A stretch of DNA of 64,000 bases, from positions 18,126,501 to 18,190,500 of the forward strand of contig CM072338.1 of the NCBI GenBank assembly GCA_036874045.1, in the 5' to 3' direction. Shown here piece after piece: positions 1 to 64,000 of this stretch. The DNA comes from Cymodocea nodosa (taxonomy: Eukaryota > Streptophyta > Magnoliopsida > Alismatales > Cymodoceaceae). A model generated the notes under the pieces. It was given only the letters and a program-made list of their open reading frames with translations, had not been told where the DNA came from and ran no database searches. Every line of letters begins with the position of its first letter. Positions within the stretch are counted from its first letter, which is position 1. The position numbers were made by a program, and so were the translations under genes.

Positions 1-1237
1 TATTAAACCGAAACTTAATGCATAATAAAGCATACCATACAAGCCTAACTAGTTGTATGAAATCATAAGTTTGTTTTAAAAAATAATTAAGCAAAATAGG
101 CACCTCTAGGAAATTAAATTCTTAGTATTACTTCTAAGAAAACTTTTCCATTCATACATGGTATGTTTTATGGTATTCGACTATAATAATCTTATCATTA
201 ACGTTTCTTCGTAATTTTCCCACTACTTATCATCTAACCTTTAAGCATCATCAAGAGATTTTCTTTATAATATTCTATTCTAAATTCTATAATTTTTTTT
301 ATTTTAATATGTTCCTAAAGTACTTCTAATTGTACGTCTTGAAATAAAATTTAGACACAAGAAAATGATCTTCCGTCTCTTCTTTGCAAGCCAAGTTCAG
401 TGGCAAACTTCCTAACGAGCACCGGAGAACAAAGGCAAAATATATGAGGGACTCTCCCACTTCTAAAACCCAAAAGTAATTGAATTGATTGAAATTACAT
501 GATTTCATATTCTCGACTAAGATTCAAATTTGTGGTACAATTGTTAAGACAAAGTCCAACATCGGTTAAACACAAATAGAACCTGACCATATATAATTAA
601 TGTAACATCATCACTCACTACCAATTAGTTTTAAGTTAAACTTTAACATGGTATATCAAAAAAGATTTATAATGTGAATCCCATGTTAGCATATAAAATA
701 TAAGAAAACTAGAAGTAAGAAAGTATGTTAAGACACAATTCTACATGGGTTAAAAATAAATGGAACCTAAGCTTATACAATATAAAACCCACCATTCGCT
801 ACCAATCAATTTTGAATTGAACTTTCACAGATATTTTCTCGCCAATTTAAAAAAATACTCTTCTATTTGGTAGGTCTTGAATCTGAGCTCTAAGGCACGA
901 TGACACTATCATACACTTCAACTCCTTTCTTACCTTCATATGCACTTAAATCGTTAAATTATGGACTAACAATTCATTTACCATTTATGCACATGGTTCA
1001 CATATTAAATTTATTTTTTCAAACTTATAAAATACAAGGTATTCACACTAAATTTTCAAATATTTTTATCTCTTCTATAATATTCCTTTTGTTTTACTTA
1101 ATCATCTGAAATTTTTATTGAAGATAAACTTTACATTACTATCGATGGATCAAAAAAACCCAATTTTAATAATGCAACCATCATGAAAATGAAGACCTTG
1201 GTAGTATAGCACAAGAGATATCATGTTCATCACGAAC
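1..1237 (-). other. Intron 5 of MADS gene 1 (start of it)
   Basis: Sequence downstream of exon 5 of gene 1, equivalent to 22983-24219. AT-rich. The open frame at 900-1109 also occurs in the other units but has no recognised family. Exon 6 is not reached inside the window. Confidence 0.6.
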
Positions 1238-3658
1238 CTTATTTTGAAGACCATTGATCTCTTCCATAATCTGACCACTCTGCTAGATTTCCACACCATG
1301 GGTTATATATAAATAACACAATGAACACTGTACTAGGATGGAAGAGCAATCACACGATTGTTTAAGTGAGACAGATCCACCTTTTTAGTTAGCACGCCAG
1401 CTAAACCTGCTTCAAGAGCTTTCTCTAGCGCCTGAAGCTCGTCCAGCGTCAACCCTTGGAGCTCCTCTCCCTTCATCTGTCTGAACTAGTGACAAGCAAC
1501 TCGATAAGGAATCTTGTCTCTAAACCATTTTACATAAAATCCTATACCTGATTCGATGGGTCATTTCGGCAATCTGCTTGCTTACTCTTGCACAGTCGCT
1601 GTTCACTAGCTGCAAATTAAAGATATCATGAAACACTTGAAGTCCAATATTCAAGTGTCTTGTATCTGATGTTTCTGAAGGTGAAGGGCTCAAAACAAAC
1701 GAAAAACTGATATCGAAGAAGAGTTAGTCTCGGCCCGATCAGGCACAGATTTGCATGCAGCTCAAGCATTTAAAGCTTAACAAATATTGAAAAGAAAGAA
1801 ATGACATGCAAGTTTTGCAAATTAATGAGTAGAACATTAATAGAACATTGATAGAGCCTTGTTATTATGCACACATCACATGAAATGCAAAACATCGAGG
1901 ATAAAGATTAGATGCAATTTTTATCTTGGTTGATATTTGTATTTGGTCGCAATTACTAATTGGATCCCACATATGAAAATAAATTATCCGTACTCTAAAA
2001 TTGTAGGGCTAGCTTTTTTTTGTTTTGGTGGTTTCAGTCCAAATTAGGGTGTTTTCTTAACTATGTATAAAAATAAGTTAATGTGTGAAAATACGTTAGG
2101 TTGAACTTTTTTAAAAACGATATGTATTTTCATATTTTAGATCTAATAATTGTTACCTTAAAATCTCTATGACTAAATGGATCTTCACAGAAGAATTCAA
2201 GGAATGTCATGTAACCTTTTTAAATCAACCTGGTAAATTATTAAAAACTAATTATTTTACATATACATACATTATAGGGCTTTTTTTTTTGGAAGATGCT
2301 CTTTTAATACAGCCGCATAAACATGCACTATCAGTATTAATTCCAAGTTAGACAAGATGTTCCTTTCTTTCATAACAAAGACATCAAGCCATGCATTAAA
2401 ATTCATGTTGGCAAAAAGGAAAATACACAATATGGAAAACTGGGGAGTTAGCACTAGTATACCAATTTCTAAATGCATTTTTTTAACGTCTACGCATGAG
2501 AGATGCTTCTGCTCAATGTTGTTCTGTGCTTTACGGCCTTCACACATTTCATAACCTGATCGATGAACAGTTCAAAATGTTTGGGGTCCCAAATCACGCG
2601 ATTAAATATTATGCACAAAAATTTATCTTTACTCGATCGATACAGTAGTTATCTACGTATGGATCACGGATGAAATATAAAAAATGAACAGGTGGGGGGA
2701 AGCTTAAAGGCTTACGTGCAATTCAAGAGACGGTTCGGCATGATTCTGTGGGGATTTTGAATGGCAGCCATGTCTTTCGATAATCTCCATCATGCTTCAT
2801 AAGAAAAGAGATTAAAATATGCTCCATGTAAAAGTTACGCAAGTAGTAATCAATTCTATAGAAGTGATCCATGACAAAGAATGTATCACTTTCGACTATG
2901 CAAATTAGAGAAGATGGATGGCGTTTCACATGTATAAATGCATAGATATCATGTGCTTCTGAGACTTATGCAGGTACTATTTCGTTCTTTAACCATATAA
3001 TTTATATACAAACATACGCATTTGACCGGCCAAAAAATATATATACGTACGTATCCGGTGAAGACTCAGTACTACCAATGTGCATCACATCAACCACCAA
3101 GACATCATGAAGAAAATCACACATAACTATAGACATGAAGCATGATTAATAGTCATCTTCTTAAACATTAAAACGCCATAAAAAAGGTGTACGCATTTTC
3201 TCACTTTCTAAGTAATTATGGAGAGAAAATAGATGGACTCGAGACACCCGACGTAATTAATTATTCAACCGGAACGAGAAGAAAAGGAAGGAGCCGCCTT
3301 TGCTTTGCACCGTCGTGCCTGCTTACACTCATCCCCTATAGATCCAGGAAGCTAGGAGCATTTGGCAGTAGTTCATAAATACATATTCTTAGCAATTATA
3401 TCTATCATAATTATATATATATATAGTTATTAGTTATCATACCTAATATACGTATATATAGTGTTGGTAATTATACCTGGAGCTGGCGTACTCCAAGAGC
3501 TTGCCGGTGGAGGAGAAGATGATGAGGCCGACCTCCGCATCGCAGAGTATGGAGAGCTCCTCCGCCTTCTTGAACAGTCCCCTCCGGCGCTTCGAAAAGG
3601 TGACCTGCCTGACCGTCGCATTGTCTATCTTCTTTATCTTTATCTTCTCTCTAGCCAT
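1238..3658 (-). CDS. SVP-like MADS-box factor, gene 1 (exons 1-5; 3' end off window)
   Basis: Type II (MIKC) MADS-box transcription factor of the SVP/StMADS11 clade, a nuclear DNA-binding protein expected to bind CArG boxes as a dimer. Exon 1, 3658-3477, encodes MADS residues 1-60, beginning [20 protein letters not shown] and including [16 protein letters not shown]. Exon 2, 2794-2716 (79 bp), gives [15 protein letters not shown] and ends PSLELH. Exon 3, 1609-1548 (62 bp), gives [20 protein letters not shown]. Exon 4, 1480-1381 (100 bp), gives the K-box stretch [20 protein letters not shown]. Exon 5, 1279-1238 (42 bp), gives [14 protein letters not shown]. All junctions are GT/AG and exon lengths match the Arabidopsis SVP pattern. 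Introns are 682, 1106, 67 and 101 bp. Exons 6-7 should lie to the left of the window, by analogy with genes 2 and 3. Start chosen as the only Met before the MADS domain. No defect is visible in these exons. Confidence 0.88.
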
Positions 3659-4493: not shown

Positions 4494-4827
4494 GTGGTGT
4501 TTGTGCATGATGAAATATCACAGAAAATGATATAAATTAACAAAAAATTAGTAAAAAATCAATTTATTTGTACATAAAACAGAAAATGATGAAATTTGAT
4601 ATACATGTATTTGTGTATAGAATATAAAATGATGAAAAATTATAAAATATAAAATATATTTATTTATTTATAAAATAAAAATATTAAAATTAATAAATTA
4701 AATATTTTTTATATTTATCTATAAAATAAAAAATAACAAAATTTATTATAAATAATATAAGATAAAATCATTTATAATAATTATTACAATATAAAATATA
4801 TTTTACACATCTTTGTTATTCCACATA
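4494..4827. other. AT-rich filler replacing the DnaJ 5' region in unit 1
   Basis: Immediately after a shared stretch ending aaaattatcttaaa, unit 1 switches to 334 bp of very AT-rich sequence with repeated aaaatgatga and ataaaatata motifs. Units 2 and 3 have about 1.75 kb of spacer plus the first ~75 codons of the DnaJ gene here. Homology resumes at tcctcctcgcg (4828). I recognise no element in it. Confidence 0.7.
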
Positions 4828-5068
4828 TCCTCCTCGCGTCTCAGAGGAGGATCAATAGCCATGTCGAATGGTACTCCATCCTCCAGCTCCAGCCGACACC
4901 TAATGGCATCGACTAAGTTGCCATCTGGAGCACCTACCGTCAACTGGCTCTCCTCCTCCACCTCGACAGGAACGACCACCCAAGTGCCGCCCTTACGTTC
5001 AAGCTCGTCTACGGAGCGTGGGCCTTCTCATCCAATCCCAATAAGAAGAGGATCTACGACGAAGAGAT
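4828..5068 (+). pseudogene. DnaJ-domain gene, 5' fragment, unit 1 (broken)
   Basis: Remnant of a J-domain co-chaperone gene. In the J frame it reads SQRRINSH-EWYSILQLQPTP, then a stop replaces Tyr (GAC TAA at about 4910), then AIWSTYRQLALLLHLDRNDH, where the essential HPD tripeptide has become HLD. It ends AFSSNPNKKRIYDEE where the copia LTR begins. The first ~75 codons are missing, replaced by AT-rich filler. Three independent defects (5' deletion, stop, HPD loss) plus the insertion make it a pseudogene. The 3' half resumes at 10482. Confidence 0.8.
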
Positions 5069-5287
5069 TGTTGAAATTAGTTAAAAAGGTCAAGTTTTAA
5101 ATTTAAATTTAAAATTGAATTTGAAATTTAATTTTTCATTATTATCGAAAATTAAAGAAAAGTTAGAGGTAGAAAATTCTTCAAATGTTATATATAGAGG
5201 TGATTAAAAGAATTAATAACAATACATAAAAATTCTTTTGATCACTTGGAATTTTCCATCAATGGAGGCCTAAACCGAAGAACAATA
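5069..5287 (+). repeat. 5' LTR of copia element, unit 1
   Basis: Starts TGTTGAAATTAG and ends near aagaacaata just before the PBS-like site. It is alignable with 10264-10481 but clearly diverged, so the insertion is old. It contains runs of aaatttaaattt and a tatatatag box. Confidence 0.7.
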
Positions 5288-6119
5288 GTGATATTAGAGT
5301 TGATTTCTCCACTGTTGGCGCTCCTTCACTGCTATAGCTTTGCCCTTGCATCGTTGCTCGTGCATCTCCACCCTTTCACATATGGCTATCGTCCTCCCCG
5401 CACGTCTCTGCTGCTCTGCTCGTGTACTCCCTCGACGCTCATATGCACTCCTCTGCTCGATCGCACCTTCAACGTTCATGTGTACTTCCGCCACTCGTGC
5501 ACACACCTCTATCACTCGCGTGCACATCTTCACCACTTCACTTCTTCGCATCTTTGCTAGCGCATTTCGCACACTTCACGCATGATTCCGTGCACCACTA
5601 CCACTCTCTGCTTGTCGAATAGCACATGGCGCACACATCTTCGCCCTTCTATGTGTGTGCGATGTCGTCGAAACGCCTACGCCATCGCCTATCCATGTAG
5701 ACCTCTACCTTCATATGCTACCCCTGTGCGTGGATATCTAGACTTTCACCTTTGGGCAATCCCAATTTGAGATATACGCTTTCCCCTTCTTTACTTAATA
5801 TTATAATATGATATAATATATTATATTGAATTTTTTTAAAAAAAAATTGTAATTTCTTTTTTGTTAATTTTTGTTAGTCATTATTTATATTACATGTTTA
5901 GAAATTACATGCTTTAATTAGTTAAAAAAATCACTATAATTTGAATTTAAATACTTTTCAAGAATTTGAAATTTAATTTTGAATTTTGAAATTTGAATTC
6001 AAATAGTTTTGAAATTTTTGAAATTTAAATTTAAATTTTGCATATTTTTTAGAATTGTATTTTGTTCAAAAGAAATTGTTTATTGAAATGGGAAATTGAT
6101 TTCAATTGTAGATATAAAT

Positions 6120-7240
6120 ATGACTTCAAAGATGTTTACAATTGAGTTGGCAAGGATAGATAAATTAAATGGAGTAAATTATGAGATGTGGTATCGAAAA
6201 ATAAATCAAGTATTAGAATATGAAGATCTTGAATATGTAATAGGTTTGCATCCTCTTGAAATAGATGAAAATGATTCTAAAGCAGAAATTAAAAGAATAA
6301 ATCAATGGAGGAAAGATGATAAAAAGGTGAAAAATTTAATATTCATATTCATGGAAGATTGTCTTATTAAATGCTATGAAACTTATACTAATACTTATAC
6401 ACTATGGAACACTTTGAGGGAAAAATATAATAAAACAACTGAAATGAACACTCAGTTACTCTTTCAAAAATATAACTCTTGCAAGATGCTAGAGGAATAA
6501 AACATGTTGGAACATGTAAATAATATGATAGTTATGGCAAAAGACTTGGCTAATATAGAAACTCCTATACCTAAAAAACTACAAATAACAACTATATTGA
6601 ATAGTTTGCCCCACAGCTATGATATGGTCAATACATCTCTTAGGCCTACCCCACTTCAATGATCTAAATTGCCAACCAAGTTGGGTACTAAATAGGAAAT
6701 AATAGTTAGTCGGAGGCAACATGAATCTCATTTATAAGAAGCCAACGCCACATTTCAAAAGCATAGATTTGATAAAAGCAACAAAAGAAGAAATGGACCA
6801 AATAAGAACAACTTCAAGCTAAATCAAGCATGTAGAAAGAAAGCACGAAGATAAGCCACGCTTGTGGCCAATTTGGTCATTTTAGGGCACATTGTCCCAA
6901 CAACGATGGAAATAAAAATGAGACCTCGAAATCAAACCTGAAGAACAAAAAAACCTTTGTTGGAGTTGTGGAATCTAATAATGTTGTAGTCCCTAATTTA
7001 GATGAATGGTGAGTTTATTCTAGTACCGCAAGGCACACTACCAAAACCAAAAAGGGACTTGACTCCTTTAAATAGTTGAGTCCTAGACAACAACACATCT
7101 GTATGGGTAATAATATTTATTTAGATGTGGAAAGTATTGGCACATATCGTTTAGACTTGGGAGACAACATTATGATTTTGAAAGACGTCCTCTATGCAAC
7201 TGGTATGAAGTAGAATTTAATATCTTTAGGTGCTCTCTTA
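6120..7240 (+). pseudogene. Copia gag, zinc knuckle and protease region, unit 1
   Basis: Gag opens at 6120 (MTSKMFTIELARIDKLNGVN) and stays open to a stop at 6498-6500 (LEE*). The region MWYRKINQVLEYEDLEYVI and EMNTQLLFQKYNSCKM matches the copia gag (UBN2-type) pattern. Downstream, in another frame, ACGQFGHFRAHCPNN is a CCHC knuckle whose first Cys has become Ser. The protease site region is decayed (DEW-VYSSTARHTTK). Several stops follow. Confidence 0.75.
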
Positions 7241-7249
7241 TAGAATGGT

Positions 7250-8000
7250 TTGGATGTTCGATTTTACAATAAACGTGTATCCATAAGAAAAGATAAAAAA
7301 AATATTGCTTTGAGAATTTTTGTATCGAAACATGATTTATTTAAACTTTCTATTGTTGCTAATGAAATAAATGAAGTAGTTTCTGATTATATTGTGTGTT
7401 ATTTATCTGAAATTGATTTGTGGTATTTAAAATTGGTGCATGTTAATAAATCTAAACTACAACAATTGATAAAATTGAACATGTTGCTTGAAATTAAAGA
7501 CATGGAATTAAATAAATGTCAATATTGCTTAGTTGGGAAAATGACTAAGAAATCCTTTGGTAAGGGATATAGATCAAATAAATTATTGGGCTTAATTCAT
7601 TCTGATGTATGTGGTCCTTTAAGAATTAAAACTCATGATGACAAGGAATATTTTGTGACTTTTATAGATAATTTTTCTAGATATGCTTATATTTATCTAA
7701 TAAGTCACAAAAGTCAAGTATTGACTTATTTTAAGAAATGCAAGTTGGAAGTAGAAAAATAACTTGGAAGAAGTATTAAGGTGTTAAGGTTAGATAGAGG
7801 AGAGGAATATAATTCTAAGGAATTTAAGATATTTTGTAAAATGCGTGGAATTAAAAGGCAAACTATAATGCCTTATACACCACAATAAAATGGTGTGGCA
7901 GAAAGAATAGAACAAAACACTTATGAATTCTGTTAGATAGATGCTTTCACAACTCCAAGTCTATTCCTAACACATCTTATGAATTATGGACTAGAACTAA
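7250..8000 (+). pseudogene. Copia pre-integrase and integrase region, unit 1
   Basis: The open frame 7250-7762 holds the pre-integrase part (WYLKLVHVNKSKLQQLI, then CQYCLVGKMTKKSF, the latter half of the HHCC zinc site) and the integrase core (LIHSDVCGPLRIKTHDDKEY, FVTFIDNFSRYAYIYL). A stop at 7760 is followed by LRLDRGEEYNSKEFKIF and MPYTPQ-NGVAER. The usual SDRGGEY has become LDRGEEY. Confidence 0.8.
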
Positions 8001-8392
8001 GCTCAACTTACATTAATTAAGAAAATGGGGATTTGTAGCCCATATACTTATTCTTGGATAATTAAGGGATAAGTTAGACATGAAGACTTTAAAGTGCAAG
8101 TTTATAGGCTATTTCGAAAATTCTTTCTATTATAGGTTCTATAATAAAGAAAATGAATTATTGAATATAAGGATGCCACTTTCCTAGAAAATCTGAATGA
8201 AAATGAAGAAATAGTAAAGGAATATGAACCACTATTTGTGGTGAATGATGACTATTTCAAGAATGTCTTGGAAAAGAACCTTAAAGTGTAAGGAGAACAA
8301 AACATTGAAAATATAGATCAACTAATGGAAATTGCCAATGGAAATGACCATGAACCTATGAAAGTCATGGGAGGAATCCAAAATGAGTCTAT

Positions 8393-10105
8393 ATGGGAAT
8401 TGAAGAAATTAATAGGAATGGAGAAGAAAGAGAACTAGATGTACCTATTAGCAACAAAAGGGTGAGACATCAACCAACATGGATGGATGACTACCATTTA
8501 TATTCCTGTGAGTTTTCTTATTTATTGATGGATATGAAGGAAAATCATATGGAACCCATGACATACAAGGATGTCACTGAATCTTATGAAAAGTATTTAT
8601 GGTTGAATGCCATGAGTGATGAGATTAATTCTATGAAAAGAAATCAAGTATGAGAATTATGTGATTTAACTCAAGGAAAGAAAGCTATAGGGTGCAAATA
8701 AATATTCTGGAAAAAGTTAAAAGTTGATGGGTTTATTGATAAATATAAGGCCCGTTTTAATTGCTAAAGGTTATACATAGAAATCGAGAATTGAATTTTA
8801 TGAGACATATTCTCCAATAACTAATTTTGCATCTATAATAATTATATTGGTTATAGTTGCACATTTAGATTTGGAATTACATCAAATGGATGTAAAAACT
8901 ACATCTCTAAATGGAGAATTGCAAGAAGAAATCTACATGTCACAACTTGAGGGATTTCAAGCGAAAAGACATGAAGAGAAAGTGCGCAAATTAAAGAAGT
9001 CAATATATGGTTTAAAACAAGCATCTAAAAAATGGTATCATAAGCTTCATGATATAATTGTCAAAATGGGATTTGTTTCAAATAGGTTAGATTATTATGT
9101 ATATGTCAGGAATAGTGGGAGTAAATTCATTATATTATCTTTGTATGTGGATGATATTTTACTTGTTGGAAATAATACTGACATGTTAAATGAAACAAAG
9201 GAATAACATAGTAAAAGATTTGAGATAAAGGATATGGGAAAAGCATCCTATATTCTTGGAATTCAGATCCAAAGAGATTAGAAATCTAGAACACTGAATA
9301 TAAATCAAGAAAGATATCTACGCATGGTGCTAAAAAGGTTTGGAATGGACAAGTGTTCCTCAACCTCCACACCTTATGTTTTAGGGAAAAGATTAAGTAA
9401 TGACCAATGTCCTAGAAAGGGGAAGGAACCTTTAAGGGCACATTATGCCCAAGTAGTTGGAAGTTTGATGTATGTTATGTTGTGTACAAGATTGGACTTG
9501 GCATATGCTATAAGTGTTGTCAATAGTTATTAAAGTAATCCCAAAACAAAACATTGAGAAGCTGTTAAGAGAATTTTGAAATATATAAAATAAACTTTGC
9601 ACCATAAATTGACTTATCAAGCAAATGAGCTTAAAGTGTTTGGTTATACAAATGCAAATTTAGGTGGTGACAAAAATGATAGGAAGTCCACTTCAAGACA
9701 TGTTTCATCTTTGATTGTGCAACTGTATTTTAGAGAAGTAATAAACAAGGGTGTGTAGTAAAATACACATAGGAAGCAAAATGTGTTGCCTATAGTGCAG
9801 CTACATCAAATGATGTTTGGATTAGGAGATTCATAAATAATATGAATCTAAACTTGATAAATGGTTCAATAAAAACGTATTGTAATAACCAAGCAGCAAT
9901 AAATCTTGTATATAGTGGTGCAAATACAATAAAAAGATAGTATATAAATATACATTATCATTATATACATGATATTATAGGAAATGGGAAAATAAAATTG
10001 AGTTATATCTCTATGAAAGATATGATTGTTGATCATTTAACAAAAGAGATACCAGTAGAAAAATTCATTAAATTTGTAAACTTGACGGGACTAAAGAACA
10101 TTTCT
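8393..10105 (+). pseudogene. Copia reverse transcriptase / RNase H region, unit 1
   Basis: RT segments include WLNAMSDEINSMKRNQV, LHQMDVKTTSLNGELQEEIY, KKSIYGLKQASKKWYHKL and the catalytic YVDD (9144-9155, in SLYVDDILLVGNN). Later come PYVLGKRLS, GSLMYVMLCTRLDLAYAISV and RNase H-like EAKCVAYSAATSNDVWIRRF with IHYHYIHDIIGNGKIKLSYI near the end. Stops interrupt nearly every segment. Confidence 0.82.
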
Positions 10106-10263
10106 ATGGATCATAGAAATGAACAATATTCTCATGAATAGTGGGAGTGAAAGATTAAAATTATGCTACCTAAGAATAGTGGGAGCAAAATTAAAAAGAA
10201 TATATGGCTTATAGGGTTTGACATATAAATGAATATAATTGATCTTTTTGATCAAATGAGAGA

Positions 10264-10481
10264 TGTTGAAATTGGTCAAAAATACTAAGTTTCAAATTTA
10301 AATTTAAAGTTGAATTTAAAATTTAATTTTTAATGGTTACCAGAAATCAAAAAGAGATTTGAAGACAAAAAATGTGAAGGTAAAGAATACTCTACATGCT
10401 ATATATAGATGTAATTAAAAGAATTAATGATAATACATAAAAATCATTTTGGTCACTTAAAATTTTCCATCATCGGAGCCC
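10264..10481 (+). repeat. 3' LTR of copia element, unit 1 (right end deleted)
   Basis: Begins TGTTGAAATTGG after a purine-rich aatgagaga (likely polypurine tract). It stops at catcggagccc, where the sequence jumps into the DnaJ gene (acaggtgat). Unit 3 keeps the full LTR end. Confidence 0.7.
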
Positions 10482-11235
10482 ACAGGTGATACACAACGGC
10501 AACAATCTTCACCTCCACCACCGGCTTCGTTCTAGACGATGTTCTTTGAATGTTTCCGGGGCATATGAGTTCACGAAGGAGTACGAAAACCGGACGCTAT
10601 TGTGTCAAAACTGTCGGAAAGTGTTTCGGGCAACGGAGCTACCGACGACCCCGTCGGTAGTGCCAGGAACTTATATGTATTACTGTTCATGGGGATTGTT
10701 TCCGCTAGGTTTTTCTAGTGCGTCACTTTTCAATGGCGTCGTTATTCCAGAAGGGATTGTTGGCATCCCAGCTTTCTCGGGCGATTCGGCGAATTAGCCG
10801 CCTAGCGGGGGACAGGGAGGAATTGACGTAGGCTAGCAGAATGCTTCTGGCAAGAGGAACTCTATAGATAGTAATCCCAATAGTGTTGTCACGAGATGGA
10901 GAGAGGTAGCTTCTGCTACTCCATCGGCTGCAACTAGAACAGTTGGGAGGAAGCCGAGAAAGGCATTGGCATCGAAGCCTAAGAAGCAGGATTCGGCACA
11001 GCAGCCACCGCCTCAGGCTCAGCTGCAACAACAAACGGGAATTACGTTTGGAGTGTAGAATAATAATGCACAGGGGACAAAGAATGATGGTGTTCCCACA
11101 ACACAGCATAACGATTCTGGAGGAGGATTTGACATGAATAGTTTCAGTATAGATTTGAATCACACAGCTGAGGTTCTCGGTAGCCTGGTGAACTTTCCAT
11201 ATCTGAAGGACGATGAAATTGTGGTCATGCGATGA
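10482..11235 (+). pseudogene. DnaJ-domain gene, 3' fragment, unit 1 (broken)
   Basis: The 3' half of the J-domain gene resumes after the copia element. It encodes a Gln/Pro linker, the zinc beta-ribbon (ECFR..., then LLCQNCRKVFRATELPTTPS), a Gly/Phe-Pro stretch (GLFPLGF), a basic AT-hook-like GRKPRKALASKPKK, a Gln-rich stretch and a conserved C-terminus (EVLGSLVNFPYLKDDEIVVM, stop 11233-11235). An extra G in ccggggcatatg shifts the frame inside the zinc ribbon, the first CxxC has become FFEC, and there are further stops (SAN*PPSG and IDVG*QNA). Confidence 0.78.
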
Positions 11236-13262: not shown

Positions 13263-15379
13263 CTTATTTTTGTTGTTATACAATCTTTTCAAAATTTTGA
13301 AACTTTTTTTTGTTCTTAAAAATAAAAGAGCAATGATTTTCTTGTATATGTTTTCAACTTTCATTTATAGTTGAATTTTAGCATGCATGACATACTTTTC
13401 TTTTGTCTTTTTTTTAGATCATAATTAAACAAAAATAATATTCCTTTTTGAGGCCCTAACTAGAATATCATATTGATATTCGTCAAATTTTTTGATACCA
13501 CAATTTTTTTGTTATAGAGTATTCTTCTTCAAGAGTGGTTGTTGATAATTGCTGACGAGGCGCTCTTCATTTAGGATTAGCATGCTATTTCCCACGAAGC
13601 TTATGACAATCTTGTAAGTTCAACTTCAAATTCTGATGCACCTAGAAGGTGATCGAATGAGGTTGAGCTTGAAGGGAGAAATCAATCTTTTTTCTCTCAT
13701 AGGATTTTCTTTTCTTTCTTCCTCCTCTTCTGTCCTATGTTTTGACCTATTTTGTTATTTAGACTTTATTCGAAACCTTTTGCATCTTTCACTTTAATTA
13801 TAATTTCACAACTAGACTGTTTAATTTATGTTACCGTTTAACATTGCAAAAAACAGGAGTCGTACTGATGCAAGCAAACAAATCGTGTGGTGTAGCCTGC
13901 CGGTTTTACTTCGACTTAATCCATAGTTGAGTGAATTCATTTCATGCCTTTAACTCATATCTTACATTTTTACCAGTACATGTATGACCATTCATTTTCT
14001 TCTGTTTTGTTCCCTACAGGTGATTTTTTATTAGATAAATACGTGAACTTTCTAAAATCATTGTATCATGTTGAAATGTAGACATATAAATTACAATCAA
14101 TTAATTACAAGTAGAATTTTTTTTTCCCTATTAACTCACATTTTAAAACTCAAAATGCATCACTTGACTATCAGAAGGAAAGTCATTGCATTGGTGCAAC
14201 TACACTTTTCACCTGGGCACAGACCTCCAGAAACACGATCACAGATGAATGAAAGGAAAAGGCTTTCTGTGGAAGGAGGAACAAATAAATAGAAAAGAGG
14301 GAGCTGTTAATGTCTTAAATTCTCTTCTTTTAAACGCCCAAAGGTTCAAAGGTGTCACGAGAGTCTTTACTTAGCATGCCATAGATTGGAACTTGGTGGT
14401 GGCAGACCAAAAACCAGGTCCATGTCATACAACAAATCTGATTGTTGTCAGCTAAGTGAAAAACACCCTTCACCAACACATGTATTCCAACTGCTGCAAA
14501 CTAGTAACATGGTTGCTGCATAAAAACAATGACATCGACAAGAAAGAAAAGTGGAATTAAAGAGAGATCAGCAATATATCAGATGCTATTAAACACTACA
14601 TGTCCCGTAGTGTGCTTCAGTGATGGCAAGAAACTGGTGGACGATGCCTAACAAGTTCTTCCATGAAATCAAGACTTTTGAGGTCATACCCAAGCTTCAT
14701 TCCACAATCATACAAATTAACAGTAAATTATACATACATATATATATATCAGTGCAGCCACAAGGTCCTCTTTCTAATGGACATGTAACAGCTTCTCACT
14801 TTCAGCTGGAGAAGGGTAGCCTGCCAACAGAAGAATAAAGCGCATTGTCTAATGGTATACGGATGAGCTTCTACGAGTATCACAACAAAAAAAATACTAG
14901 CAGATATTTTTCTAAATGCTAGAGTTCATGGTTTAGATTAAATTGTTTAGGGGCGAACATTGGCCACCCTTCTTTCCACATTGCGTTTGCACCATCTTAT
15001 TAATGTTTTTTTTTTCGGCGAGGGAAATAAATCTGAGATTTGCATCTTCTCCTGAACTCCACAAAGATGCAGTCCTTGGTACTTTTCAAGAATAGACACT
15101 TCTAATGATGAAAGTGCTGAAATGTAAGCATTCAACTCAAAACTAAAGAAAAGATTATTTATATTTGCATGATTGAAGATATGCTATAAACTTCACAAGT
15201 AGTCCCATACATGTGGATTTTGAGGATGTTGGCGAGAAAAGTGAGGATGAGTAATAAGACATGATTACTCTTATGGACCCTTTTACCTTGTTAAAATAAT
15301 TTTAGGGAAACGAATCCTTAAAGATTAGATATCCTAAGAGGACAAAGGAATCAATGCATCGTGAGTTAACCCACAAAGG
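13263..15379. other. Unassigned spacer, unit 1
   Basis: No gene could be recognised. It contains short exon-like islands bounded by possible acceptors (e.g. aaaaaacag before gagtcgtactgatgc near 13857) and reading frames that are well conserved between units, but conservation follows from the duplication. A separate conserved minus-strand frame is listed at 14947. Confidence 0.4.
14947..15135 (-). other. Conserved unidentified open frame, unit 1
   Basis: 62 codons on the minus strand, starting MNAYISALSSLEVSILEKYQ and containing LHLCGVQEKMQISDLFPSP. In units 2 and 3 it is open for 65 codons and nearly identical (RRVANVRP here, RWVANVRPQTI there). No family recognised. It could be an exon of a degraded gene or chance. 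Confidence 0.2.
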
Positions 15380-47623: not shown

Positions 47624-47786
47624 TGTTGAAATTAGTTAAAAAGGTCAAGTTTTAATTTTAAATTTAAAATTGAATTTGAAATTTAATTTTTCTTGATTAT
47701 CGGAAATTAAAAAAAAGTTAGGGGTAGAAAATTCTTTAGATCACTTGAAATTTTCCACCAATAGAAGCTTAAATCGAAGAACAACA
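47624..47786 (+). repeat. 5' LTR of copia element, unit 3 (internally deleted)
   Basis: 163 bp instead of about 219 bp: about 57 bp lying between two attctt repeats in unit 1 are missing. Confidence 0.7.
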
Positions 47787-48590: not shown

Positions 48591-49690
48591 ATGACTTCAA
48601 AGATGTTTACAATTGAGTTGGCAATGATAGATAAATTAAATGAAGTAAATTATGAGATGTGGTATCGAAAAATAAATCAAGTATTAGAATATGAAGATCT
48701 TGAATATGTAATAGGTTTGCATCTTCTGGAAATATATGAAAATGCTTCTAAAGTAGAAATTAAAAGAATAAATCAATGGATGAAAGATGATAAAAAGGCA
48801 AAAAATTTAATGTTCATATTCATGGAAGATTGTCTTATTAAATGCTATGAAACTTACACTAATGCTTATACATTATGGAACGCTTTGAGGGAAAAATATA
48901 ATAAAACAACTGAAATGAACACTCAGTTATTCCTTCAAAAATATAACTCTTGCAAGATGCTAGAGGAATAAAGCATGTTGGAACATGTAAATAATATGAT
49001 AGTTATGGCAAAAGATTTGGCTACTATAGAAACTCCTATACCTAAAAAACTACAAATAACAACTATATTGAATAGTTTGCCACACAGCTATGATATGGTC
49101 AATACATATCTTAGGCCTACTCCACTTCAATTATCTAAATTGCCAACCAAGTTGGGTACTAAATAAGAAATAATAGTTAGTCGAAGGCAACATGAATCTC
49201 ATATAGAAGAAGCCAACACCACATTTCAAAAGCATAGATATAATAAAAGCAACAAAAGAAGAAATGGACCAAATAGGAACAACTTCAAGCATGTAGAAAG
49301 AAAGTACGAAGATCTTGCCATGTTTGTGGCCAATTTGGTCATTTTAGGGCACATTGTCCTAATAATGATGGAAATAAAAATGAGACCTCGGAATCAAACC
49401 TAAAGAACAAAAAATCCTTTGTGGGAGTTGTGGAATGCAATAATGTTGTAGTCCCTAATTTAGACGAATGGTGGGTTGATTTTAATATCACAAGGCACAT
49501 TACCAAAACCAAAAAGGGACTTGACTCCTTTAAAGAGCTGAGTCCTAGACAATAACACATCTATATGGGTAATAATACTTATTTAGATGTGGAAAGTATT
49601 GGCCACATATCGTTTGGACTTGGGAGACAACATTATGATTCTGAAAGACGTCCTCTATGCACCTGGCATGAGGTAAAATTTAATATCTGT
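48591..49690 (+). pseudogene. Copia gag, zinc knuckle and protease region, unit 3
   Basis: Gag opens at 48591 (MTSKMFTIELAMIDKLNEVN), stop at 48971, continuing MLEHVNNMIVMAKDLATIET. The zinc knuckle CHVCGQFGHFRAHC (49316-49357) is a perfect CX2CX4HX4C. The protease region WWVDFNITRHITK has lost the DTG/DSG catalytic triplet. Confidence 0.75.
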
Positions 49691-49700
49691 ACGCGCTCTC

Positions 49701-50420
49701 TTGAAGAATAGTTTGGAAGTTCGATTTTACAATAAACGTTTATCCATAGGAAAAGATAAAAAAATCTTTGCCATGAGAATTTTTGTATCGAAACATGATT
49801 TATTTAAACTTTATGTTGTTGCTAATGAAATAAATGAAGTAGTTTCTGATTATATTGTGTATTATTTATTTGAAATTGATTTGTGGTATTTAAGATTGGT
49901 GCATGTTAATAAATCTAAACTACGACAATTGATAAAATTGAACATGTTGCTTGAAATTAAAGACATGGAATTAAATAAATGTCAACATTGCTTAGTTGGG
50001 AAAATGACTAAGAAATCCTTTGGTAAGAGATATAGATCAGATAAATTATTAGGCTTAATTCATTTTGATGTATGTGCTCCTTTAAGTATTAAAACTCATG
50101 ATGACAAGGAATATTTTGTGACTTTTATAGATGATTTTTCTAGATATGCTTATATTTATCTAATAAGTTACAAAAGTCAATTATTGACTTATTTTAAGAA
50201 ATGCAAGTTGGAAGTAGAAAAATAACTTGGAAGAAGTATTAAGGTGTTAAGGTCAGATAGAGGAGGGGAATATAATTCTATGAAATTTAAGATATTTTGT
50301 GAATGCATGGAATTAAAAGGAAAACTATAATGCCTTATACACCACAATAAAATGGTATAGCAAAAAGAACAGAACAGAACACTTATGAATTCTGTTAGAT
50401 GGATGCTTTCACAGCTCCAA
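49701..50420 (+). pseudogene. Copia pre-integrase and integrase region, unit 3
   Basis: Open 49701-50225: WYLRLVHVNKSKLRQLI, CQHCLVGKMTKKSF, LIHFDVCAPLSIKTHDDKEY, FVTFIDDFSRYAYIYL. After a stop the frame continues LRSDRGGEYNSMKFKIF and MPYTPQ-NGIAKR. The D-D-E positions are largely recognisable. The polyprotein is broken by stops. Confidence 0.8.
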
Positions 50421-50541
50421 GTCTATTCCTAACACACCTTATGAATTGTGGACTAGAATTAAGCTCAACTTACATTAATTAAGAAAATGGGGATTTGTAG
50501 CCCATGTACTTATTCTTGGATAATTAAGGGATAAGTTAGAT

Positions 50542-52555
50542 ATGAAGACTCTAAAGTGTAAGTTTATAGGCTATTGCGAAAATTCTTTCAGTTATAGGTT
50601 CTACAATAAAGAAAAGGGAATTATTGAATATAAAGATGCCACTTTCCTAGAAAATTTGAATGAAAAGGAAGAAATAGGAAAGGAATATGAACCACTATTT
50701 GTGGTGAATGATGAATACTTCAATAATGTCTTGGAAAATAACCTTAGAGTTGAAGGAGAACAAAACATTGAAAATATAGATGAATTAATGGAAATTGCCA
50801 ATGGAAACGACCATGAACCTATGAATGTCATGGGAGGAATCCAAAATGAGTCTATAAATGGAATTGAAGAAATTAATAGGAATGGAGAAGAAAGAGAACT
50901 AGATGTACCTGTTAGCAACAAAAGGGTGAGACATCAACCAACATGGATGGAAGACTAACATTTGTATTCTTGTGAGTTTTCTTATTTATTGATGGATATG
51001 GAGGAAAATCACATGGAACCCATGACATACAAGGATGTCAGTGAATCTCATGAAAAATATTTATGGTTGAATGCCATGAGTGATGAGATTAATTCTATAA
51101 AAAGAAATCAAGTATGGGAATTATGTGATTTGCCTGAAGGAAAGAAAGTTATAGGGTGCAAATAAATATTCTGGAAAAAGTTAAAAGTTGATGGATTTAT
51201 TGATAAATATAAGGCTCGTTTTAGTTGCTAAAGGTTATATATAGAAATCAGGAATTGACTTTTATGAGACATTCTCCAATAGCTAAGTTCGCATCTATAA
51301 GAATTATATTGGTTAAAGTTGAACATTTAGATTTAGAATTACATCAAATGGATGTAAAAACTACATGTCTAAATGGAGAATTGTAAGAAGAAATCTACAT
51401 GTCACAACTTGAGGGATTTCAGGCGAAAAGACATGAAGAGAAAGTGCGCAAATTAAAGAAGTCAATATATGGTTTAAAACAAGCATCTAAAAAACGTTAT
51501 CATAAGTTTCGTGATATAATTGTCAAAATGAGATTTGTTTCAAATAAGTTAGATTATTATGTATATGTCAGGAATAGTGAGAGTAAATTCATTATATTAT
51601 TTTTGTATGTGGATGATATTTTACTTGATGGAAATAATACTGACATGTTAAATGAAACAAAGGAAGAACATAGTAGAAGATTTGAGATGAAGTATATGAG
51701 GAAAGCATCCTATGTTCTTGGAATTCAGATCCTAAGAGATCAAAAATCTAAAACACTAAATATAAATTAGGAAAGATACTTGCGTATGGTGCTAAAAAGG
51801 TTTGGAATGAACAAGTGTTCCTCAACCTCCACACCTTATGTTTTAGGGAAAAGATTAAGTAATGACCAATGTCCTAGAAAGGGGAAAGAACCTTTAAGGG
51901 CACCTTATGCCCAAGTGGTTGGAAGTTTGATGTATGTTATGTTGTGTACAAGATCGGACTTGGCATATGCTATAAGTGTTGTCAATAGGTATCAAAGTAA
52001 TCTCAAAACAAAACATTGGGAAGCTGTCAAGAGAATTTTGAAATATATAAAAGAAACTTTGCACCATAAATTGACTTATCAAGCAAATGAGCTTAAAGTG
52101 TTTGGTTATACAAATGTAAATTTAGGTGGTGACAAAAATGATGGGAGTCCACTTCAAGACATGTTTCATCTTTTGAGGTGCATCTGTATTTTAGAGAAGT
52201 AAGAAACAAGGGTGTGTAATAAAATACACATAGGAAGCAAAATGCATTGCCTATAGTGCAGCTGCGTCAAATGAAGTTTGGATTAGGAGATTCATAAATA
52301 ATTTGAATCTAAACTTGATAAATGGTCCAATAGAAATGTATTGTAATAACCAAACAACAATAAGTCTTGTATATAGTGGTGCAAATACAACAAAAAGATA
52401 GTATATAAATATACATTATCATTATATACATGATATTATAGGAAATGGGGAAATAAAATTGAGTTATATCCCTACGAAAGATATGAATGTTAATCCTTTG
52501 ATAAAAGTGATATCATTAGAAAAATTCATTAAATTTGTAAACTTGATGAGACTAA
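50542..52555 (+). pseudogene. Copia reverse transcriptase / RNase H region, unit 3
   Basis: Connector frame 50542-50958 (CKFIGYCENSFSYRFYNKEK...), then RT: WLNAMSDEINSIKRNQVWEL, KKSIYGLKQASKKRYHKF, YVDD (51606-51617), GSLMYVMLCTRSDLAYAISV and RNase H-like EAKCIAYSAAASNEVWIRRF. At least four stops or frameshifts. Confidence 0.82.
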
Positions 52556-52724
52556 AGAACATTTTTATAGATCATAGAAATGAACAACATTCTCATGAGT
52601 AGTGGGAGTGAAAGATTAAAATTATGATGACTACAAATACTGGGAGCAGAATTAAAAAGAATATATGCCTTATAAGGTTTGACATATGAATGAATATAAT
52701 TAGTCTTTGTGACCAAATGGTAGA

Positions 52725-52961
52725 TGTTAAAATTGGTAAAAAAGACTAAGTTTCAAATTTAAATTTAAAATTGAATTTAAAATTCAATTTTCAGTAGTTA
52801 TCAGAAATTAAAAAGAAGGTTGTAGACTAAAAAGGTGAAGGTAGAGAATAATCTAAATGCTATATATAGATATAATTAAAAAAATTAATGATAATACATA
52901 AAAAAATCCTTTTGATCACTTAAAATTTTCCATCATCGGAGCCCCAAACCGAAGAACAACA
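52725..52961 (+). repeat. 3' LTR of copia element, unit 3
   Basis: 237 bp, TGTTAAAATTGG to agaacaaca. This is the only complete LTR right end in the window. Confidence 0.7.
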
Positions 52962-53756
52962 AAGATCACCGCTCACTTCGGATCCAACGATTAGGAGGAG
53001 CCCACAGGTGATACACAACGGCAACAATCTTCACCTCCACCACCAGCTTCGTTCTGGATGATGTGCTCGGAATGTTTCCGGGCATATGAGTTCGCGAAGG
53101 AGTACGAAAATCGGACGCTATTGTGTCAAAACTGTCGAAAAGTGTTTCGAGCAACGAAGCTACCGACGACCCCGCTGGTAGTGCTGGGAACTGATATGTA
53201 TTACTGTTCATGGGGATTGTTTCCGCTAGGTTTTCCTAGTGCGTCACTTTTCAATGGCGTCGTTATTCCAGAAGGGATTGTTGGCATCCCAGCTTTCTCG
53301 GGCGATTCGGCGAATTAGCCACCTAGCGGGGGACAAGGAGGAATTGACGTAGGCTAGCAGAATGCTTATGGCAAGAGGAACTCTATAGATAGTAATCCCA
53401 ATAGAGTTGTCACGAGATGGAGAGAGGCAGCTTCTGCTACTCCATCGGTTGCAACTAGAACGGTTGGGAGGAAGCCGAGAAAGGCATTAGCATCAAAGCC
53501 TAAGAAGCAGGATTTGGCACAGCAGCCACCGCCTCAGGCTCAGCTACAACAACAAACGGGAATTACGTTTGGAGTACAGAATAATAATGCACAGGGGACA
53601 AAGAATGATGGTGTTCCCACAACACAGCATAACGATTCTGGAGGAGGATTTCACATGAATAGTTTCAGTATAGATTTGAATCACACAGCTGAGGTTCTCG
53701 GTAGCCTGGTGAACTTTCCATATCTGAAGGACGATGAAATTGTGGTCATGCGATGA
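52962..53756 (+). pseudogene. DnaJ-domain gene, 3' half, unit 3
   Basis: Resumes after the copia element: KITAHFGSND*EEPTGDTQR (stop where unit 2 has Gln), then the zinc beta-ribbon with both Cys pairs intact (FWMMCSECFRAYEFAKEYEN and LLCQNCRKVF), GLFPLGFPSA, two stops (SAN*PPSG, IDVG*QNA), GRKPRKALASKPKK (AT-hook-like), a Gln-rich segment and EVLGSLVNFPYLKDDEIVVM, stop at 53756. The two SAN*/IDVG* stops are shared with unit 1, so they predate the duplication or mark an unrecognised intron. Confidence 0.78.
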
Positions 53757-55784: not shown

Positions 55785-57819
55785 CTTATTTTTGTTGTTA
55801 TACAATCTTTTCAAAATTTTGAAACTTTTTTTTGTTCTTAAAAATAAAAGAGCAATGATTTTCTTGTATATGTTTTCAACTTTCATTTGTAGTTGAATTT
55901 TAGAATGCATGACATACTTTTCTTTTGTCTTTTTTTTAGATCATAATTAAACAAAAATAATATTCCTTTTTGAGGCCCTAACTAGAATATCATATTGATA
56001 TTCGTCAAATTTTTTGATACCACAATTTTTTTGTTATAGAGTATTCTTCTTCAAGAGTGGTTGTTGATAATTGCTGACGAGGCGCTCTTCATTTAGGATT
56101 AGCATGCTACTTCCCACGAAGCTTATGACAATCTTGTAAGTTCAACTTCAAATTCTGATGCACCTCGAATGTGATCGAATGAGGTTGAGCTTGAAGGGAG
56201 AAATCAATCTTTTTTCTCTCATAGGATTTTCTTTTCTTTCTTCCTCCTCTTCTGTCCTATGTTTTGACCTATTTTGTTATTTAGACTTTATTCGAAACCT
56301 TTTGCATCTTTCACTTTAATTATAATTTCACAACTAGACTGTTTAATTTATGTTACCGTTTAACTTTGCAAAAAACAGGAGTCGTACTGATGCATGCAAA
56401 CAAATCGTGTGGTGTAGCCATTTGACCATTCATTTTCTTCTGTTTTGTTCCCTACAGGTGATTTTTTATTAGATAAATACGTGAACTTTCTAAAATCATT
56501 GTATCATGTTGAAATGTAGACATATAAATTACAATCAATTAATTACAAGTAGAATTTTTTTTTCCTATTAACTCACATTTTAAAACTCAAAATGCATCAC
56601 TTGACTATCAGAAGGAAAGCCATTGCATTGCTGCAACTACACTTTTCACCTGGGCATAGACCTCCGGAAACACGATCACAGATGAATGAAAGGAAAAGGC
56701 CTTCTGTGGAAGGAGGAACAAATAAATAGAAAAGAGGGAGCTATTAATGTCTTAAATTCTCTTCTTTTAAACGCCTAAAGGTTCAAAGGTGTCACGAGAG
56801 TCTTTACTTAGCATGCCATAGATTGGAACTTGGTGGCGGACCAAAAACCAGGTCCATGTCATACAACAAATCGGATTGTTGTCAGCTAAGTGAAACACAC
56901 CCTTCACCAACACATGTATTCCAACTGCTGCAAAACTAGTAGCATGGTTGCTGCATAAAAACAATGACATCGACAAGAAAGAAAAGTGGAATTAAAGAGA
57001 GATCAGCAATATATCAGATGCTATTAAATTCTACATGTCCCGTAGTGTGCTTCAGTGATGGCAAGAAACTGGTGGACGATGCCTAACAAGTTCTTCCATG
57101 AAATCAAGACTTTTGAGGTCATACCCAAGCTTCATTCCACAATCATACAAATTAACAGTAAATTATACATACATATATATATATCAGTGCAGCCACAAGG
57201 TCCTCTTTCTAATGGACATGTAACAGCTTCTCACTTTCAGCTGGAGAAGGGTAGCCTGCCAACAGAAGAATAAAGCACATTGTCTAATGGTATACGGATG
57301 AGCTTCTACGAGTATCACAACAAAAAAAATACTAGCAGATATTTTTCTAAATGCTAGAGTTCATGGTTTAGATTAAATTGTTTGGGGGCGAACATTGGCC
57401 ACCCATCTTTCCACATTGCGTTTGCACCATCTTATTAATGTTTTTTTTTTCGGCGAGGGAAATAAATCTGAGATTTGCATCTTCTCCTGAACTCCACAAA
57501 GATGCAGTCCTTGGTACTTTTCAAGAATAGACACTTCTAATGATGAAAGTGCTGAAATGTAAGCATTCAACTCAAAACTAAAGAAAAGATTATTTATATT
57601 TGCATGATTGAAGATATGCTATAAACTTCACAAGTAGTCCCATACATGTGGATTTTGAGGATGTTGGCGAGAAAAGTGAGGATGAGTAATAAGACATGAT
57701 TACTCTTATGGACCCTTTTACCTTGTTAAAATAATTTTAGGGAAACGAATCCTTAAAGATTAGATATCCTAAGAGGACAAAGGAATCAATGCATCGAGAG
57801 TTAACCCACAAAGGAGAAG
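55785..57819. other. Unassigned spacer, unit 3
   Basis: Equivalent of 13263-15379, about 95 bp shorter through a deletion near 56417. A 69-codon minus-strand frame (56976-56767) is open here but has no recognised family. Confidence 0.4.
57373..57570 (-). other. Conserved unidentified open frame, unit 3
   Basis: 65 codons, same predicted protein as at 33114-33311. Confidence 0.2.
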
Positions 57820-58372
57820 CCGAGAGTAAAGCCTTTATTTATTACATGCAAAATGATGAAGTCCAGTAGTAACAAAACCAGATCAAAAGACAAATTTTGT
57901 TACTGCTGAAAGAAAAAGGGACATATAATGAAGTATTACAAGCTTCAAAACAAAGAGAAGAGAAAGATAAAAGTATGAATTAAAGAAAGCTCAACTTAAA
58001 ACTCAAGTTAGCACACAGATGAATTTGCATGTGTTCCTTCTTCTTGTCACAAATGAAAGTGGATGAAAGAATGAATAGATCCTAAGACTTCGGAAGTACC
58101 AACATATGCGTTTATCTTACGTTAGAGATGTGCTTGAGGGCAACAATTCGGCATGCAAAACTATTAGAAGAGGTGCAATTCAGGTTAAAATGTATGATGA
58201 CATACTAAAAGCCTTATCCAATATTTGTTGTATTTCTAAAATTGATGAATATGAACTCTTAAATCAAGTGGGTGAAGGTATCCAAGTACTCAAGCTGGAT
58301 GTGGCTCTAATAATCTCTAGGTGTGCTCTTGTCAATATGAAAGGCAAACATCCTAAAAGCTTGTCTATCTAG
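57820..58372 (+). mobile_element. Second copia element: gag / pre-integrase fragment, unit 3
   Basis: Third copy of the fragment with GNNSACKTIRRGAIQVKMYD, open to 58372. Confidence 0.6.
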
Positions 58373-58921
58373 AAAGGAAAAACAACCACATGCTTGACTT
58401 CATCAACATCAACATCGTCGCTCAATCTCCATCAAGATGATAAAAAAAGAGTGTGTGGTCTTTAACGATAAGACACACGAGTGAAAAGAGAATGGCATTG
58501 TTGACAAAACTATTAATTAATAGAGAGGTATGATTCGAGTTAAGATGCATGATGACAAATCAAATGTTCGTCGTGTTCATAAATGAGTGAAAATCCTCAT
58601 TTCTTTAAGTTCTCTTATAAATTGAATGAGTGCAAGTACTTCTTTATCTGGCGAGATCATTGGATGTCACTGTAGAAGAGGCTTCAATGGACCGGCAGAG
58701 GCAATGGTTCTAGGGTACGAGATTAAGGTTTAAGGCTTAAGAGATAAAGGTTTATGAATAGGTAGAGAAGATGGATTATTGAACATGAGATCAGGAGCAG
58801 TGCTAGTAGTTTCCACAAGGCTTGTCAGCAATGGTAGTTGGAAGGGAGGAGGAGGGTGACAGCTAAAATTTTCCCCTTCCCTACCAAAACCTTTTAAAAT
58901 TTTTTAGACTCTCAAAACCTA

Positions 58922-59481
58922 CTTTTTGATACCACGTTGAAATATAAAAAATGATTGAAAGTTGCATATCATTCATAATAAAATAATTCTTTTATGTATA
59001 AATACTGAAAGAAGAGAACAGAAACATCATAAATAATGTAAAACTAAACTCACTTAAAATACAAAATCCTAATTTGTTTTTTTTTCTTTAACAAGATTCT
59101 TAGGTATCTTTATGGTACCATGAATGTTTGTCTAAGGTTTAGAAGAAAAAAAGAACCGAGTGGCCTAGTAATTCATAAGTTTGAAGAAAAACGAAGGCTT
59201 GGGTAGCTTTGTTGATTCATACTTTGTTGTTAATGGTTACGAAAGGAGATCTCTCACTTGGTACATATTCTCAATTGATGGTACTTATACAATCAATTGA
59301 AAAATCAACTTTAGTAGTCACAAACGTGTGATCCAAATGTCTACTTTAATCCATGGAGTTCTACTTGCGATGTTGTGTAACATAACCAAACTCCATTTAT
59401 GAAACCTATAAAACACGTAAACTCGTGTTTTGGCACTTTGTTGCCATTCCAACCTCCTTCCTCTCCTTTATATTCCTAACA
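58922..59481 (-). mobile_element. Single LTR with primer-binding site, unit 3
   Basis: 547-bp LTR (59481 down to 58935) with the same decayed inner end (plus strand cacgttg) as unit 2 and the adjoining tRNA-binding site (TGGTATCAAAAAG). Confidence 0.7.
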
Positions 59482-59672
59482 AGAACAAATTAATTATGGA
59501 AAGTCTTACATTGATGAATGCAAGCATATAACTTAAGTTAATATATGATAAATTCTTCTATTCATTACTAATTGATTTCTTCCCAAATGGATATAAAGAT
59601 AAAATCTGGAATAATATATAATGAACATTTTTACTCATTACTAATAGATTTTAAGATAAAATATTTTACACT

Positions 59673-60058
59673 TTATTCAATCAACTTTAAGTTACTAGAG
59701 ACTGTAATCCAAGTTCCACAGGAACAAGAATAGAGATGTGCAAACCCTAGTTTGAGAGAAGTGTCAGAGCTGTCGTCATAATCCAATGGAGCTCCGACAT
59801 TGGCAGCATTGGTGGTGGATTCCGAAGATTGCCTATCCTCGTGGAAAAAGACCTCTTGATCAACAGCCACGTGGTTCCCTCCTCCAAATATTTCCAAAAG
59901 CTGCACCCATTGAATGCTCGCAATATGATCCAATGAGTGGCAAAAAAATCACATATGATGAAAAGCTTCATCAAGAAGAATGTAGTAGGTAGATGGGAAA
60001 TGAATTGAAATAGTACTTGCTGTTTCAGACGTGCATTTTCATCCATAAGTTGCATTCC
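59673..60058 (-). CDS. SVP-like MADS-box factor, gene 4 (exons 6-7; 5' part off window)
   Basis: Exon 6 (60058-60017, [14 protein letters not shown]) and exon 7 (59900-59673, with [17 protein letters not shown] and [10 protein letters not shown]) are present with a 116-bp intron. They match gene 3 exons almost exactly. Exons 1-5 are expected more than 6 kb to the right, beyond the window end, because intron 5 is about 6.6 kb in genes 2 and 3. This shows that the array continues or ends with at least one more 5' half to the right. If no such half exists, these exons are an orphan 3' remnant. Confidence 0.75.
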
Positions 60059-62673: not shown

Positions 62674-62749
62674 GCATGTTTGGTTGTGTTATAGATTTAA
62701 CTTTGCATGTTTGGTTGTATTATAGATTTAACTTTGTATGTTTGGTTGA
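62674..62749 (+). repeat. 31-bp tandem repeat, unit 3
   Basis: Same 2.4-copy array as at 20465. Confidence 0.85.
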
Positions 62750-64000
62750 ATTTCTTTTACCCATAAAGTTGTATTTTTAGGAAAATGACTTCAGAAAAGA
62801 GAAAATACATCAACTATTACACAAAACAGGATGAAATTTTTTTAAATATTTTAGTAGCAGAAATTAGAGAAGATAGAATATGTACTTGTAATAAATTGCA
62901 TGAGGGAGAGAGAGAATATGTAAGACAATTATTGAAATGTACTTGTAATGCATTACACTTTTGATAAAAAAGTTATTTCATATGTGCTTATTATTATAGT
63001 TCTTTTAAGTTAATATACAAAAAGTTACCAAAATTTATTAATATATATTTTATTATTTTATAAAAATAAATTTAATTATTATAAAAATCTATATCATCAT
63101 TTCATATCATTTCTTAGTGTGTATAAATACTTCAACTTTCCTATCATTTCCAGGTGTACATAAACATTAAATCACTTCTTGTTATTTCTCATCATCTCTT
63201 TTTCTTTTCATTTCCCATAATTTTTTCAAGCTCCCGTAGTTTTATTTCCTGTTGAGAAATGTGTACAAATAGACCCTTATATTTTTAAGGTTCCTCTCCA
63301 AGTAGAAATTTTTTTCATATTATAAGTGCCTACATTTTTTTAAATATTTTATATTTAAAAATAAAAAATAACTATATAGATAATTAATCTATAGTATAAC
63401 CTACTATGCATTAAAATTCAAACAATCCAAATTCTGTTCATTAAGATTTTTCAATTTGTAAACAATGGTTGAAAGTCAGTAAAAATTAACTGATTTTAGT
63501 ACCTTTATGTCAAGAATCAATACTTAGTTAATCCAAACAAAAATATTCTCATATTTTTTGTTATCATCAAATTATAATATTTGTATGTTTACTTCTACCC
63601 CATATGTATTTATGAAAGAGAAATACGACACTCATTAGACTTCTACCTGTAAGTTCGTACAGGAACGTTTATTTGAAATGCTAACTACGCCAGCTACATG
63701 TCCATCCTATAGCTTCTTATGTTGGCATAATCTATGATATTCTTTGTTGTTAAAAGGGACCAATCTATATATAAAACACTTATGATCTCCTTTCCAAGGT
63801 AATATATTCAGTAGAGTACTGTTTTTGCACAGTTTTACATATATTAATGCAGCGCACAAACACTTGCAATGTTCCAAACCCACCTCAGATTTCTAGCACC
63901 CGTGAAATTCTTGCAATGAACAGTGTAAAGAATTAAGTTGCAAGCTCCCACAATGATGATAGTAAAAAGTACATGCAATTCTACATATGCAATGCTATGG

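Follow-up and report, generated by a model that had tools for sequence, protein, structure and literature searches.

A five-gene SVP array

Is a repeated stretch of MADS-box genes in Cymodocea nodosa a true tandem array, and if so, how did it form and what might its copies do? SVP-clade genes help time flowering or bud rest, and their relatives restrain flowering and bud growth. The window analyzed here, a stretch of 64,000 nucleotides, corresponds to C6:18126501-18190500 (contig CM072338.1) of an assembly of 374,616,459 bases in 28 contigs. When the window was compared with itself, long repeats of 88-98% identity appeared at offsets of about 18, 23-24 and 41-42.5 kb. Several of these matches between units are 4-8 kb long, far above what chance would give. 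A search with an SVP protein query entered by hand located three copies each of exons 1-5 and of exons 6-7, all on the minus strand. With 100 kb of flanking sequence added on each side of the window (264 kb joined, zero Ns), each of exons 1-7 is present five times, as is the eighth exon described below. The array thus comprises five complete SVP-clade MIKC genes, all on the minus strand, with a spacing of 18.2-26.1 kb and a total span of about 109 kb. In a self-comparison of the 264 kb, matches between units (>400 bases) end near window positions -10431 and 98883.

The units are numbered U1 to U5 in order of increasing window position. Their first exons start at 3658, 26608, 44801, 68834 and 94897, at successive distances of 22.95, 18.19, 24.03 and 26.06 kb. 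The genes of U2 (14802..26608, minus) and U3 (32978..44801, minus) lie whole within the window, each with eight exons and 226 aa. Their exons are at 26608-26427, 25760-25682, 24589-24528, 24462-24363, 24261-24220, 17623-17582, 17465-17311 and 14820-14802 in U2, and at 44801-44620, 43937-43859, 42754-42693, 42625-42526, 42424-42383, 35796-35755, 35638-35484 and 32996-32978 in U3. The window holds exons 1-5 of U1 (1238..3658, minus), whose exons 6-8 lie to its left (-5172..-5213, -5330..-5484 and -7973..-7991), and exons 6-8 of U4 (57237..60058, minus; 60058-60017, 59900-59746 and 57255-57237), whose exons 1-5 lie to its right (68834..66415). The gene of U5 is whole in the right flank (94897..84129, minus). 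An earlier note, made from the window alone, had proposed a tandem array of at least four SVP-clade genes, two complete and two partial, with open frames throughout and array ends outside the window. All of this stands: the repeat structure and the K-domain match and tree given below agree with it, the count is five in the present assembly, and both ends fall in the added flanks. Its period of 18-23 kb holds roughly, the true first-exon distances being slightly wider at their upper end.

Gene structure and clade

The same note had given each gene seven exons. Eight fit better, and we dropped the seven-exon model because a short, in-phase last exon is conserved in all five copies and in the SVP-like genes found on C5 and C12. 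The coding exons measure 182, 79, 62, 100, 42, 42, 155 and 19 nt and encode 226 residues in every copy; splice anchors and frames are consistent throughout, and none of the five units has a broken SVP frame. The eighth exon emerged from an alignment of the array to its C5 paralogue, in which 74 nt match at 82% identity (E 4e-16) and the rest of the downstream sequence aligns in short pieces only. It reads LPFSS-stop in the five array copies, LPFFS-stop in C5 and LPFC-stop in C12, each in the correct phase. Eight exons with a last intron that splits the C-terminal SLKLGL are expected in the SVP/StMADS11 clade, and at the sequence level this layout is found in the five copies, C5 and C12. The intron between exons 5 and 6 is long (5.6-6.6 kb), and order, phase and the equal layout of the C5 paralogue suggest that the two exons are joined as the note had assigned them. 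Within this intron, U2 carries a short piece (18785-18886, minus) with similar pieces in U3 and U4. The piece looked like LINE reverse transcriptase, but its 34 residues gave no Pfam match.

In all five array copies exon 7 ends in CTAGG followed by GTTTGC, and the corresponding donors are GTAAGT in C5 and GTAAGC in C12. Left unspliced, exon 7 would add 23 residues and turn SLKLGL into SLKLGF. We rejected the idea that this donor is lost, since T also stands at +3 in the intron 5 donor, which is GTTCGT in the array SVP genes and GTTTGA in the C5 gene. Given these intron 5 donors, the last donor is better read as weak yet probably usable, and a read-through form is possible. A C-terminal EAR motif is described for DAM proteins of Prunus mume, so the choice of splicing at the end of the array proteins may matter.

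The Pfam MADS (PF00319, E 6.9e-26 to 5.8e-24) and K-box (PF01486, E 9.2e-18 to 2.8e-14) domains are above cut-off in all three proteins scanned, namely U2 and U3 as seven-exon forms and exons 1-5 of U1. The best PDB match of the seven-exon U2 protein is the SVP K domain (E 1.9e-29), and the K domains of AGAMOUS (6.3e-5) and SEP3 (4.6e-4) also match. We built a tree of 15 proteins. Eight were reference sequences entered by hand rather than drawn from a database, and five of these eight were flagged as long branches. The SVP group stands apart from SOC1, SEP3 and AP1 (support 100/99), and the array genes join the C5 gene at 97/96, in one clade as is expected of tandem arrays of the DAM type. The tree gives no firm order of the array and the rice and Arabidopsis SVP genes. 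Judged by domains, closest structure and tree, the array genes belong to the SVP/StMADS11 clade of MIKCc genes.

A partner gene, decayed in four of five units

Two components of the units were missing from the earlier note. Every unit (five out of five) holds a J-domain gene or its remnants, oriented divergently from the SVP gene. Only in U5 is the J frame open, and its protein has a DnaJ domain (Pfam, E 3.7e-15). The remains in U1 (4827..11232, plus) lack the first 56 codons and show stops and a copia-type insertion at about codon 137. Those in U2 (29037..30530, plus) have frame breaks and one stop and are free of the insertion. In U3 (47214..53753, plus) the 5' part is open (PF00226, E 2.2e-15), with the insertion again at about codon 137, and stops. 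The U4 gene lacks the first 56 codons as well and also carries the element at about codon 137.

The copia-type element is the second component. It occurs in three of the five units at about the same J codon and is absent from U2 and U5. The copy in U1 (5070..10474, plus) has broken frames with RVT_2, Retrotran_gag_2 and gag_pre-integrs above their cut-offs; the one at the corresponding site in U3 (47626..52940, plus) was so classed on 91% DNA identity to that of U1, and the third lies in U4, right of the window (70249-75642). The U1 and U4 elements differ by 2.4%, and the U3 element differs from either by about 7%. Self-matches within the three elements are 67-224 bases long and 76-82% identical. 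We set aside dating by the element ends: these short matches are perhaps not LTRs, and their identity suggests an age above that of the divergence between units, at odds with the absence of the element from U2 and U5.

Right of the window, U4 also contains an extra stretch of ~4.2 kb (about 76615-80797) with two minus-strand ORFs of >150 aa. One of these may be a PIF/Harbinger transposase, and it had no Pfam match at E 0.01. Elsewhere in the assembly, plastid rbcL has a frame-broken nuclear copy at C17:1101700-1103200. Its open part scores highest against the rice and wheat chains 1wdd and 5wsk (892.7 and 892.1 bits), followed closely by the Arabidopsis chain 5iu0 (890.6), and has residues in common with each of them, a pattern too even to place the plant.

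A single-copy sister block on C5

A genome search returned SVP-like genes on C5 and C12 in addition to the C6 array, along with other MADS loci. About 14 kb from the C5 SVP gene lies a J-domain gene with an open frame, placed relative to it as in the rightmost unit, U5. The resemblance extends to the flanks. The gene left of the array has its best partner on C5 (66% identity over the segment used as query), and so does the HD-Zip gene right of the array (95% identity). C5 thus holds the flank gene, SVP, J and HD-Zip genes in the order and orientation seen on C6, with the SVP/J pair single. We interpret these parts of C5 and C6 as the two halves of a duplicated block, one of which probably gave rise to the array unit. 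Between the array and C5, dS is 0.64-0.69 and dN 0.096-0.105; within the array dS is 0-0.028. A second SVP gene outside the array lies on C12 (C12:16574273 region), and the HD-Zip gene has further partners on C12 (81%) and C14:16372495 (84%). Together, these genes on C12 and C14 hint at older duplicated blocks.

Sequence exchange between units

Pairwise differences between units are 0.6-1.9% over exons 1-5 and their introns, 0.7-1.9% in the near part of intron 5, 0.9-1.9% over exons 6-8 and their introns, and 1.0-2.5% in the proximal 820 bp upstream. They amount to 1.5-5.5% in the middle and 1.7-4.2% in the far part of intron 5, 1.1-3.5% in the first 800 bp downstream, 1.2-9.8% from 800 to 1700 bp downstream, 5.5-7.0% further upstream (three units only), 2.7-7.3% in the 3' part of the J gene and 3.1-11.8% in its 5' part. 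The SVP gene is less divergent than most of its flanks, but contains a high stretch within intron 5. Because of the middle and far parts of that intron, we rejected the simpler description of the whole gene, introns included, as <2% different.

All ten pairings of copies are found among 217 informative sites, and they fall in blocks. Neighboring informative sites conflict in 0.172 of comparisons; the mean after shuffling is 0.534, and none of 1000 shuffles was as low. Because the kinship of the copies conflicts in blocks, the units must have exchanged sequence, and it is chiefly this pattern that makes the case for exchange. We attribute the recombination to unequal crossing over or gene conversion. 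A lower mutation rate within genes could contribute to the low divergence but would not yield blocks. Exchange also makes ages computed from gene bodies underestimates.

Variation is scarcer at coding than at intron sites (9/681 versus 468/9931, Fisher p 3.4e-6), also when intron 5 is excluded (143/4522 intron sites, p 0.007). Of the nine variable coding sites, which distinguish the copies in part, 4 are silent and 5 changing, and seven lie in exons 1 and 2; this number does not allow a test of selection within the array. The proteins of U1, U3, U4 and U5 are 97.8-99.6% identical to that of U2. One of the seven sites gives D40N in the MADS domain of U3, which could weaken its protein. In a simulation of substitutions only, with 0.7%, 1.5% and 3% change per copy, the chance of five open frames is 0.39, 0.13 and 0.02. 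At gene-body divergence the five open frames are unsurprising, and on their own they are weak evidence.

Two classes of upstream region

In U1 and U4 the upstream sequence common to other units stops about 835 bp above the start codon, and the distal part is absent; U2, U3 and U5 retain a longer common stretch. In U2 the region between the SVP gene and the divergent J remains spans 26609..29036, and its distal part is without counterpart in U1 and U4. The distance from the proximal SVP upstream region to J codon 57 is about 1.7 kb in U5 and about 330 bp in U1 (4493-4825, AT-rich) and U4 (about 69671-70003). With their shorter common regions, U1 and U4 could be under different control.

Origin and possible function of the array

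We favor, with a probability of about 0.6, a recent amplification of an SVP-plus-J unit descended from the C5/C6 block by repeated unequal exchange, which would have raised the dose of an SVP-type repressor. The starting unit, about 18 kb at its shortest, would have comprised one SVP gene and one divergently oriented J-domain gene, derived from one half of the duplicated block. Repeated unequal exchange of this unit would have produced five tandem copies, exchange between units has continued, and most of the SVP gene has stayed near-identical while the J copies decayed. Five copies would then encode almost the same MADS repressor, giving a higher dose of SVP-type complexes and repression of flowering or bud growth. 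From the near identity of the five repressors we infer that a higher dose is the main effect; expression, splicing and repressor function are likewise inferred. More tentatively, the five genes may form a single dose module in which exchange keeps the repressors uniform, the J partners decay and the two upstream classes (long in U2, U3 and U5, short in U1 and U4) act as different switches.

The upstream classes would also suit a locus like that of Prunus DAM, in which the copies split the work and differing upstream regions set separate seasonal or tissue expression. The DAM genes are tandem SVP-clade genes too, and six DAM genes of European plum are described with eight exons. Such a split fits poorly with array proteins 97.8-99.6% identical to that of U2 and with a divergence of only 1.0-2.5% in the proximal 820 bp upstream; we consider it doubtful. 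About equally doubtful is a neutral recent amplification without functional effect, whose copies persist as they are young and still recombining. The small coding divergence within the array, five open frames that chance could give at the observed divergence and the decay of four of the five J copies would all be expected, but coding sites would not then be less variable than intron sites, as they are with intron 5 in or out.

An assembly artefact, with haplotypes joined end to end and fewer true units per chromosome, could explain why U1 resembles U4 and the gene body of U2 resembles that of U5, as the order would repeat. Against this, two of the ten segments available for U1 and U4 show differences of 6.1% and 6.9%, and those between U2 and U5 reach 7.0%; U5 has an intact J gene, whereas that of U2 is broken; and no flank of the array is repeated between units in the 264 kb self-comparison (matches >400 bases). 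We regard an artefact as very improbable and retain the recent amplification with increased dose as our preferred explanation.

Comparison with known tandem SVP genes

Tandem SVP genes are known from several plants, and the C6 array looks like a further example. In Prunus, DAM1-6 (EVG locus) are described as tandem SVP-clade MIKCc genes that arose through serial duplication. The array shares this arrangement and the eight exons of European plum DAM, a likeness drawn from descriptions rather than from alignment with DAM sequences. It differs from peach DAM, whose introns are published as being of low similarity, whereas divergence in most array introns is no more than a few percent. In lychee, eight of ten SVP homologues are reported in tandem; this lychee/longan cluster belongs to Sapindaceae, and the parts of its description available to us mention no J-domain partner. 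SVP3-clade copies in Castanopsis/Castanea, which belong to Fagaceae, are reported in tandem on one chromosome. Published counts give seven SVP genes in Spirodela, two in Arabidopsis and three in rice, while the Acorus (sub)genomes and two orchids have one or two (PMC10282084). The seven of Spirodela polyrhiza, for which the table is silent on tandem arrangement, equal the count here of five in the array plus C5 and C12, with other MADS loci unclassified. We found no published account of the C6 array in literature of partial coverage, which does not show that it is unpublished.

The earlier note had held that an independent expansion of this clade in a monocot, as this plant probably is, would be notable. 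That claim is weakened by the tandem genes already in print for lychee/longan and Castanopsis/Castanea, with the monocot Spirodela rich in SVP genes as well (tandem arrangement unstated); SVP-clade arrays have arisen more than once. Near-identical copies of this kind would collapse in short-read studies and lead to miscounts. The interest of the present array lies in its being complete in the assembly, with small differences between copies, decay of the partner gene and a single-copy sister block. With the C5 block as a built-in control, the complete array can be used to test whether SVP copies act through dose or through divided expression.
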